Assembly: GCA_016125185.1 (NCBI GenBank)
Contig: WGMG01000006.1
Span: 1,302,001 to 1,366,000, forward strand
Length of the DNA stretch: 64,000 nt
Source: Armatimonadota bacterium
Lineage (GTDB): Bacteria; Armatimonadota; Fimbriimonadia; Fimbriimonadales; Fimbriimonadaceae
Reading direction: 5' to 3'
Both the position numbers and the translations under genes were made by a program. Under the pieces are notes generated by a model. The model was not told the DNA's origin, ran no database searches, and saw only the letters and a program-made list of their open reading frames with translations. Below, piece by piece: positions 55,302-56,682 of this stretch (position 1 is its first letter; each line of letters starts with the position of its first letter).

Positions 55302-55600
55302 TTTGCTACCTCAGTAGCAAAAGGATCGTCTTCCTATGGTTTCTCTGTTCGACCCTTTAGGCTGGAGGTCTTCAAGTCTTCTACCTTGCCCCGTTGGGCA
55401 ATTAAAATTGACCCAGCATGAAATGCTGGGTAAGTTCCGGCAGAAACAAGCGAGCTGAAAGTTCGCATCAATGTTGACCATCTCCGAGATTGGCAAATGG
55501 GGATTGAGGCGAGCCTACAGCTCGCTTCATTTCCCGGCTAACTACCCAGGGTTACACCCGTGGGCTAATTTGAGCCAGCCCTTCAGGCTGGGGGTCCTCG
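55302..55600. repeat. Hairpin-rich repeat unit, copy 1 (no transposase gene)
   Basis: Begins with a stem TTTGCTAC-CTCA-GTAGCAAA (55302-55321). Then come hairpins in a fixed order: TTGCCCC/GGGCAA (55386-55401), CCCAGCAT/ATGCTGGG (55412-55430), GCGAGCT/AGTTCGC (55450-55466), GCGAGC/GCTCGC (55509-55525), an imperfect CCCAGGG stem (55544-55563) and CCAGCC/GGCTGG (55575-55591). Between the third and fourth named hairpins, about 40 bases end in GGGGATTGAGGCG. No coding region is supported in this 610-base gap. Confidence 0.85.
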
Positions 55601-55733
55601 CTGATGAGGCTTCTGACCACCCTCAACAGCGAATGCCCAAACGATCCACTTCAGCTCATCAAATTGGAGTACAAATCTGATGAGCTACGGAGGAGACCAA
55701 TGTCCGCTTTCCAGCGCACTGCGCTAATGTGAT

Positions 55734-55870
55734 CCAGCACTTCAGGCTGGAGGCCCTAAAGACTGAAGGAGTCTCCTACTTTGCCCCAACGGGGCAATTC
55801 AAATTAGCCCAGCATGAAATGCTGGGTAAGTCCCGCACCAAACCGGCGAGCTGAAAGTTCGCATCAATCC
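55734..55870. repeat. Hairpin-rich repeat unit, copy 2 (left part, upstream of transposase)
   Basis: Hairpins CCAGC/GGCTGG (55734-55750), TTGCCCC/GGGGCAA (55781-55797), CCCAGCAT/ATGCTGGG (55808-55826) and GCGAGCT/AGTTCGC (55846-55862) are in the same order as copy 1. The transposase ATG follows 26 bases after the last one, at the place where copies 1 and 3 have only a short linker. Confidence 0.85.
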
Positions 55871-55888
55871 AAATAAAATAGATGAGCC

Positions 55889-56341
55889 ATGCCGCAGTCT
55901 CTGTCCCAGATCGTCGTCCACGCCGTTTTCAGCACCAAAGATCGGACGCCTTGGCTCGACGAAGCATTGAGGCCAGCGCTCTTTGCCTATATCGCCACCG
56001 TTATCAAATCGGACGGCCACGTACCAATCATGGTCGGCGGACATGACGATCACGTTCACATTCTCTTCGGTTTGGCCCGAACGGTGCCCATTGCCGACAT
56101 GATCAAAAAGACAAAGGTCACCTCATCGGTTTGGATCAAATCAGAATTCCCGCACCGGTCGAACTTCGCATGGCAGGGTGGCTACGGAGCGTTCAGCGTT
56201 TCCTACCCGTCGATCGACGCCGCAATCGCCTATATTGCAAATCAGGACCAGCATCATCAGAAGCTTTCGTTTCCCGAAGAGTTTCGCCGTCTCATGGATG
56301 AGAATGGAATCGCCTTCGATGAGAAATACGTTTGGGATTGA
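55889..56341 (+). mobile_element. REP-associated tyrosine transposase (RAYT, IS200/IS605-like Y1)
   Basis: 150-residue HUH transposase. MPQSLSQIVVHAVFSTKDRTPWL is the typical opening, HVPIMVGGHDDHVHILFGL carries the His-x-His metal motif, and AIAYIANQDQHHQ holds the catalytic Tyr. The C-terminus EKYVWD is the usual end of this group. The gene is intact and sits inside a hairpin-rich repeat unit, with its stop codon within the shared GGGATTGAGGCG segment. Such enzymes cut single-stranded DNA at palindromes, so the surrounding hairpins are the likely substrates. Confidence 0.92.
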
Positions 56342-56605
56342 GGCGAACCTTCGGCTGGCTTCATTTCCCGGCCAACCCCTACCCAGGGTTTCACCCTGGG
56401 CTAATGTGACCCAGCCCTTCAGGCTGGAGGTCTTCAAGTCTCCTACTTTGCCCCAACGGGGCAATTCAAGTTAGCCCAGCATGAAATGCTGGGTAAGACC
56501 CAGGCAAAACCAGCGAGCTGAAAGTTCGCATCAATTTAGATCATCTCCAAGATTGGCAAACGGGGATTGAGGCGATCCTAGAGCTCGCTTCATTTCCAGG
56601 CCAAC
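56334..56605. repeat. Hairpin-rich repeat unit, copy 2 right part plus copy 3
   Basis: From the transposase stop: imperfect GCGAACC stem (about 56344-56360), CCCAGGG/CCCTGGG (56382-56400), CCAGCC/GGCTGG (56411-56427), then a new unit: TTGCCCC/GGGGCAA (56448-56464), CCCAGCAT/ATGCTGGG (56475-56493), GCGAGCT/AGTTCGC (56513-56529), a linker, GGGGATTGAGGCG and GCGATC/GCTCGC (56572-56588). The order is the same as in copy 1. The rest of the 341-base gap, to 56682, shows nothing else. Confidence 0.85.
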
Positions 56606-56682
56606 TTCGAACATGCATAGACGGAGCCTTCCTCACCTGTTCTGCCGCAGCATGTTCGTCTAACCGTGCCATCCGTGATTGC

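Follow-up and report, generated by a model that had tools for sequence, protein, structure and literature searches.

A Y1 transposase gene in the window, the 64-kb stretch of DNA analysed here (from a 4.52-Mb genome in 13 contigs), is flanked by mirrored sets of three hairpins and lies in an array of three tandem units (55386-56605), the other two being short and without the gene. We consider it quite probable that the gene-bearing unit is a hairpin-ended IS200/IS605-like element, or a domesticated relative of one, and that its family includes internally deleted, MITE-like derivatives. The hairpin pattern is real and general, and its most interesting part, a link to the Rfam family Acido-Lenti-1, was outside the original observation.

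The mirrored array in the window

Features of the array (H1 to H3, left hairpins; H3' to H1', right hairpins; R1, covariance model of the left end):
55386-55591, + strand, unit 1, without a gene (repeat families, folding and R1 at both ends; R1 matches at G000:C6:1357385-1357475 (+) and 1357500-1357591 (-))
55386-55401, 55411-55431 and 55450-55466, + strand, H1, H2 and H3 in the left half of unit 1
55500-55507, + strand, foot motif GGGATTGA in the right half of unit 1
55509-55525, 55545-55565 and 55575-55591, + strand, H3', H2' and H1' in the right half of unit 1
55719-55752, + strand, extra right-end remnant, CTGCGCTAATGTGA plus CCAGC..GGCTGG (repeat family D4), immediately preceding unit 2
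55781-56427, + strand, unit 2, with the gene (repeat families, folding and R1)
55781-55797, 55808-55826 and 55846-55862, + strand, H1, H2 and H3 in the left half of unit 2
55863-55870, + strand, foot ATCAATCC in the left half of unit 2
55889-56341, + strand, intact Y1/HUH transposase gene (453 bp, 150 aa) between H3 and H3' of unit 2
56334-56341, + strand, foot motif GGGATTGA in the right half of unit 2
56343-56359, 56382-56400 and 56411-56427, + strand, decayed H3', H2' and H1' in the right half of unit 2
56448-56605, + strand, unit 3, without a gene and truncated (repeat families; a single R1 match, 1358447-1358538)
56448-56464, 56475-56493 and 56513-56529, + strand, H1, H2 and H3 of unit 3
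56563-56570 and 56572-56588, + strand, foot motif GGGATTGA and H3' of unit 3

A complete unit reads as a mirror, H1-H2-H3, core, H3'-H2'-H1'. The left stems are TTGCCCC (H1), CCCAGCAT (H2) and GCGAGCT (H3), the right stems GCGAGC (H3'), CCCAGGG (H2') and CCAGCC (H1'), and the core from H3 to H3' is 42 nt long in both short units, as against 480 nt in unit 2, whose H3' has decayed (GCGAACCTTCGGCTGGC). Unit 3 stops after H3' (56588) and is without H2' and H1'. The first-pass annotation had described one ordered set of eight hairpins occurring three times in a feature starting at 55302. The three copies stand, as does the whole 453-bp Y1 gene inside the middle one, but the hairpins number six, their order is mirrored, the third copy is incomplete and unit 1 starts only at 55386; GGGGATTGAGGCG and GCGAGC, listed there as separate hairpins, are both part of one end.

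The right half is the inverted counterpart of the left, with different stem sequences. The reversed left end reads TACCCAG-CAT-TTC-ATG-CTGGGCTAAT and the right end TACCCAG-GGT-TTC-ACC-CTGGGCTAAT; the stems differ yet stay paired (CAT/ATG versus GGT/ACC), so both stem sides have changed together, in a compensatory manner. Repeat family D1 has three copies at 55374, 55770 and 56437 (identity 73-93%), and D3 three at 55500, 56334 and 56563 (88-91%). The window hairpins are more stably folded than shuffled sequence (DNA z -2.1 to -4.7), and for the stretch 56535-56610 the difference from shuffled sequence was not significant.

A plain CRISPR- or terminator-type array was rejected, as every complete unit is mirror-symmetric about its core. 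Between units 1 and 2 (55592-55780), about 125 nt of unrelated sequence with the inverted repeat AGCTCATCAAATT / AATCTGATGAGCT is followed by the right-end remnant.

Transposase class and hairpin ends in relatives

The window protein is a Y1 transposase (Pfam Y1_Tnp, 8.7e-22) with the motifs DHVH, FAWQ, YIANQDQHH and a C-terminal WD, matched to invariant columns of the family alignment A2. Its AF2 model has a pLDDT of 90, and Foldseek returned ISDra2 and IS608 TnpA as the closest structures, with TnpAREP (4er8) weaker. A PDB search with the single window sequence gave no match; one was obtained by profile search, with IS200/IS605 proteins (IS608, ISDra2) as the best matches. The motif Y...Q..HH is present in 39 of the 41 proteins compared within the phylum, the window protein included (the exceptions being L057, with Tyr changed to Cys, and L065, read in the wrong frame), and in 80 of 80 matches from genome contigs, and Y---NP occurs in none of 40 relatives and none of these 80 matches. 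As Y---Q--HH, DH[IV]H and WQ are present, the sequence places the window protein in TnpAY1 subclass 1.2 of the scheme of Quentin et al. 2018 (PMC6006769), not in RAYT/TnpAREP class 2, and the earlier label 'RAYT' has to be withdrawn. The GT[AG]G signature was sought at the palindrome's 5' foot: neither GTAG nor GTGG is found at the window feet, and the feet inspected read GATTGA or GATTAG plus 1-2 nt.

Paralogues of the transposase within the window genome are low-copy and 36-66% identical, and near-identical copies, a sign of recent transposition, were not found there. Among viral contigs, no relative was detected. In a single-contig genome (G007), two near-identical gene-bearing units (L056 and L057) lie 2.3 Mb apart, and the L057 copy is probably inactive because the Tyr of its Y motif reads Cys (SCIQNQ).

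Genes of subclass 1.2 occur widely (Armatimonadota, Verrucomicrobiota, Planctomycetota, Acidobacteriota and others). Among 112 loci with both flanks, with genes from many phyla, 99 have mirrored flanks, judged by comparing the upstream 220 nt with the reverse complement of the downstream 220 nt at a threshold set to the 99th percentile of far controls. Hairpins are about sixfold denser beside the gene (3.0 per 440 nt) than 1 kb off (0.47). H2 and H3 covary in an alignment of fifteen left ends from the phylum of the window, with 88.8% of cells paired and double changes in 10 of 16 pairs, a level reached by none of 500 shuffles. R1, the covariance model of that end, recognises half-units in 26 of 101 relatives; of the 33 gene-bearing genomes, 21 have them (Fisher 4e-9, with counts that cover related species and are not independent). 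The hairpin order is thus linked to the gene in related genomes. The window genome has 39 R1 matches at E<=0.05, several of them weak, and G002, G009, G007 and G068 have 49, 34, 40 and 34. The palindromes flanking the gene are also dispersed in genomes, the window's own unit family being confined to the local array.

Several other arrangements of ends were observed. In a Calditrichota (L206, 3780-6958) and a Verrucomicrobia locus (L208, 83-2709), the gene lies within long direct-repeat arrays with periods of ~390 nt and ~370 nt, whose repeats are fragments resembling its right end. Half-unit arrays in Armatimonadetes ATM1 (L122, G068:C22:30000-32800; L123; L125) show left and right ends alternating with a 365-nt period, and single right ends directly repeated with 160-nt and 260-nt periods. 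Doublets of REPIN-like polarity (H1 facing H1, H3 on the outer side), dispersed, with gaps of 46-144 nt and no detected gene nearby, were seen at L127, L128, L130, L131, L141 and L264.

These flanks differ from what has been published for the subclass. The protein shares with TnpAY1 subclass 1.2 the motifs Y---Q--HH, DH[IV]H and WQ, a length of ~150 aa, a conserved C-terminal tail and low-copy, diverged paralogues, whereas Quentin et al. 2018 described the subclass as generally without hairpins or REPs and mainly from Cyanobacteria and Bacteroidetes (PMC6006769), and here three mirrored hairpins stand on each side. Given the mirrored flanks at 99 of 112 loci, the hairpin-free description needs amending; the absence of hairpins is a reported property of the subclass and not its sequence signature.

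The motif GGGATTGA stands before H3' whether or not the unit has the gene, and at many left ends H3 is followed by the mirror of this motif (TCAATCC or CTAATCC). The first-pass annotation had taken it in the short units for a remnant of the transposase's last codons. The better reading is that of a cis motif at the foot of the end hairpin, one that overlaps the last codons and the stop in part of the family, so that short units seem to keep 'last codons'. Of 95 genes ending in WD, 84 have GAT as their last Asp codon, against 15 of 28 controls that likewise end in Asp (p 1.6e-4), and GAT makes up ~44% of the internal Asp codons of control genes. Left and right feet match better within loci than across loci (0 of 1000 permutations), and strict mirror alignment extends to the stop codon in 24 of 99 loci only. 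In part of the family, the end of the gene therefore has a second role as a DNA signal, and Di Nocera et al. 2013 (PMC3733652) described a related overlap of repeats with the 3' end ('3'ov') among other Y1 genes.

Gene-less units and their origin

The first-pass annotation had proposed an autonomous element with deletion derivatives, a view that holds for the family, where other genomes retain gene remnants, but finds no support in the window itself, where the copies are local and without remnants. Beyond GGGATTGA, the short linkers in the window resemble the gene no better than shuffled sequence (p 0.14-0.9), and the search for short copies elsewhere in the window genome found no further member of the unit family. 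Because of these two results, local tandem duplication appears as likely as transposition for the window array. We give roughly even chances to a history in which the three copies arose purely on the spot, through tandem duplication and through recombination among the hairpin repeats, without any transposition, the short copies being one old deletion variant that was then duplicated, and this history is compatible with the element reading. All copies stand in one head-to-tail array, the two short units share one linker (repeat family D2, aligned across 148 nt at 86% identity) and units 2 and 3 have left ends of 93% identity, and one old deletion followed by tandem duplication would be the simplest local history of the short units. 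In the closest relative (L050, 74% protein identity), the linker of a short unit beside the gene is marginally like that of the window (p 0.09). An orthologous locus was sought within the genus, and the nearest aminotransferase was 48% identical, too distant for site comparison. Local duplication leaves the dispersed gene-less units of other genomes unexplained.

Remnants of the gene were found inside gene-less units at four loci. A unit from Verrucomicrobiales (L207) keeps 21 of 21 nt from the ATG, L180 keeps 47 nt of the gene's 5' end, L181 (Terracidiphilus) keeps 39 nt of its 3' end, and three gene-less units around the gene in Armatimonadetes ATM1 (L063, on the same contig as L175) keep 25 nt of the 3' end (CTTTGACG.GCG..AT..GTGGGAT). 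The same mirrored ends combined with transposase-gene fragments identify these units as internal-deletion derivatives, and the breakpoints differ among the four loci, indicating separate deletions. As in MITEs, non-coding units share both ends with the coding element, both at these four loci and in units 1 and 2 of the window.

Gene-less copies are dispersed in Terriglobus albidus (G104) and in G089, and only local in the window genome. T. albidus carries one gene-bearing unit of 641 nt and, in different places, seven gene-less units of 261-372 nt, which share boundaries at the outer foot of H1, with a mean column identity of 0.87 inside and 0.48 outside (the first 15 nt, having served to find the units, necessarily match). 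In two of its gene-less units (L331, L333), the linker holds 33-34 nt of the transposase gene in inverted orientation, coming from the later half of that gene. G089 has about nine dispersed mirrored gene-less copies at ~90% identity.

By the REPIN consensus, polarity places the foot motif outside. The main rival explanation takes the module for a dispersed repeat of the REP/REPIN kind that a domesticated, non-transposing TnpA services; the flanking of the gene would then be incidental, and 'gene-less units' would be neighbouring REPIN-type doublets (H3'H2'H1'-H1H2H3) with intervening host DNA. Single ends and H1-to-H1 doublets do dominate away from genes, where such doublets outnumber whole gene-less units 6 to 3 among nine doublets, and both count against a simple MITE model. 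In these doublets the foot motif lies outside, as in the REPIN polarity (model in PMC3116915), and the genes are low-copy and diverged within the genome, as this rival would have it. Against it stand the gene fragments inside gene-less units at four loci, the sharp outer boundary at H1, not H3, in T. albidus, and the dispersed family of G089, which consists of whole mirrored gene-less units, and we regard it as unlikely.

The REPIN/RAYT system (REPtron; Bertels and Rainey 2011, PMC3116915), in which REPINs were proposed to derive from an IS200-like ancestor, resembles the present one in a Y1 gene lying between palindromes that also occur dispersed through the genome and in gene-less inverted pairs as non-autonomous elements. 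It differs in the Y---NP motif and the GT[AG]G foot, both absent here, and the present units have three different hairpins per end and direct gene remnants inside gene-less units. TIRYT/TIRtron elements (Di Nocera et al. 2013, PMC3733652) likewise have a Y1 gene between inverted repeats, some overlapping its 3' end ('3'ov'), and repeats dispersed singly or in dimers, but they belong largely to subclass 2.1 with GGGGWSAS repeats (PMC6006769), compared with three palindromes per end and subclass 1.2 here. With IS200/IS605 (IS608, ISDra2), the window unit shares the fold, the HUH/Tyr core and a Y1/HUH TnpA accompanied by subterminal hairpins; those elements have small subterminal hairpins and near-identical copies within a genome (PMC6006769), whereas here each end has three hairpins and the copies are diverged.

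Under the preferred reading, a hairpin-ended element with gene-less derivatives, unit 2 would be a single-strand DNA element whose two ends are inverted copies of one three-hairpin module recognised by its own Y1 transposase. By analogy with IS608 and ISDra2, the transposase may recognise the hairpins on a single strand, guided by the foot motif, and the unit may be excised or copied between the outer H1 hairpins. The foot motif beside H3 (GGGATTGA on the right, TCAATCC on the left) would belong to the recognised end, which the window protein would bind and cleave, and transposition would be single-stranded; the short units would be internally deleted, MITE-like derivatives that retain both ends. 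Counting against this reading are four genomes with ends and no detected gene (G005, G021, G023 and G089) and one strain pair (G057 and G030) with no clean empty site, so that we make no claim on target or TSD; G030 has unrelated DNA in the place orthologous to a G057 gene unit, and a doublet absent from G030 is absent there together with a gene.

The Acido-Lenti-1 family and the element ends

The H2'-H1' part of the end would correspond to Rfam Acido-Lenti-1 (RF01687), which matches the window as follows:
56382-56426, + strand, match over all 46 model positions, corresponding to H2'-H1' of unit 2
55545-55590, + strand, further match
55782-55826, - strand, further match
56449-56493, - strand, further match

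All four matches fall on H1-H2 or H2'-H1' pairs. The window scores are 34, 26, 31.9 and 30.1 bits (E 1.4e-5 to 2e-3), under the gathering score of 37, and the left end of unit 1 gave no match. The likeness is close in that the 46-position model spans H2'-H1' end to end, and scores above the gathering score were obtained in many relatives, both at element ends (L049, L050, L067, L170, L171, L181) and at dispersed copies. Of the 26 matches listed for the window genome, 25 fall inside R1 half-units. The family was found in 23 of 101 relatives, 19 of them gene-bearing (Fisher 2e-8). It also occurs in every one of 20 genomes that were selected because they have the gene and that belong almost entirely to other phyla, at as many as 136 copies per genome, and in 0 of 14 control genomes. 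G005 (L308-L317) and G089 (L298-L307) have 44 and 22 Acido-Lenti-1-type matches with no subclass 1.2 gene found, as orphan repeat families.

Acido-Lenti-1 was listed by Weinberg et al. 2010 as a probable RNA of Acidobacteria and Lentisphaerae, to which their main text assigns no function (PMC2864571), and our literature search on the family found no link to a transposase. Catalogued as an sRNA of those two phyla, it appears here as part of the end of a DNA element. Since part of the ends described here matches it, Acido-Lenti-1 probably represents the terminus of such an element, a mobile one. It is very improbable that the hairpins act as RNA, be it as the Acido-Lenti-1 sRNA or as terminators or attenuators of the transposase gene: the model does fit them and the catalogue entry does call them a probable RNA, but both orientations flank the gene as an inverted pair, the copies are dispersed repeats that follow the gene across genomes, and a DNA end accounts for their position, symmetry and copy number.

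Taken together, we find it likely that subclass 1.2 comprises hairpin-ended elements of many phyla, with three inverted palindromes per end, some of which overlap the stop codon, and with gene-less derivatives, and that Acido-Lenti-1 is their DNA end and not an RNA gene. This would correct the published classification of subclass 1.2 ('no REPs'), probably explain an orphan Rfam RNA family and give a concrete origin to a class of multi-hairpin repeats in poorly studied phyla. The gene remnants are sequence evidence for a transition that has been proposed, from a Y1 element to REPIN-like repeats without the gene, and Terriglobus albidus DSM 26559, a named strain that has at least seven gene-less units in addition to its one gene unit, is suited to a direct test.
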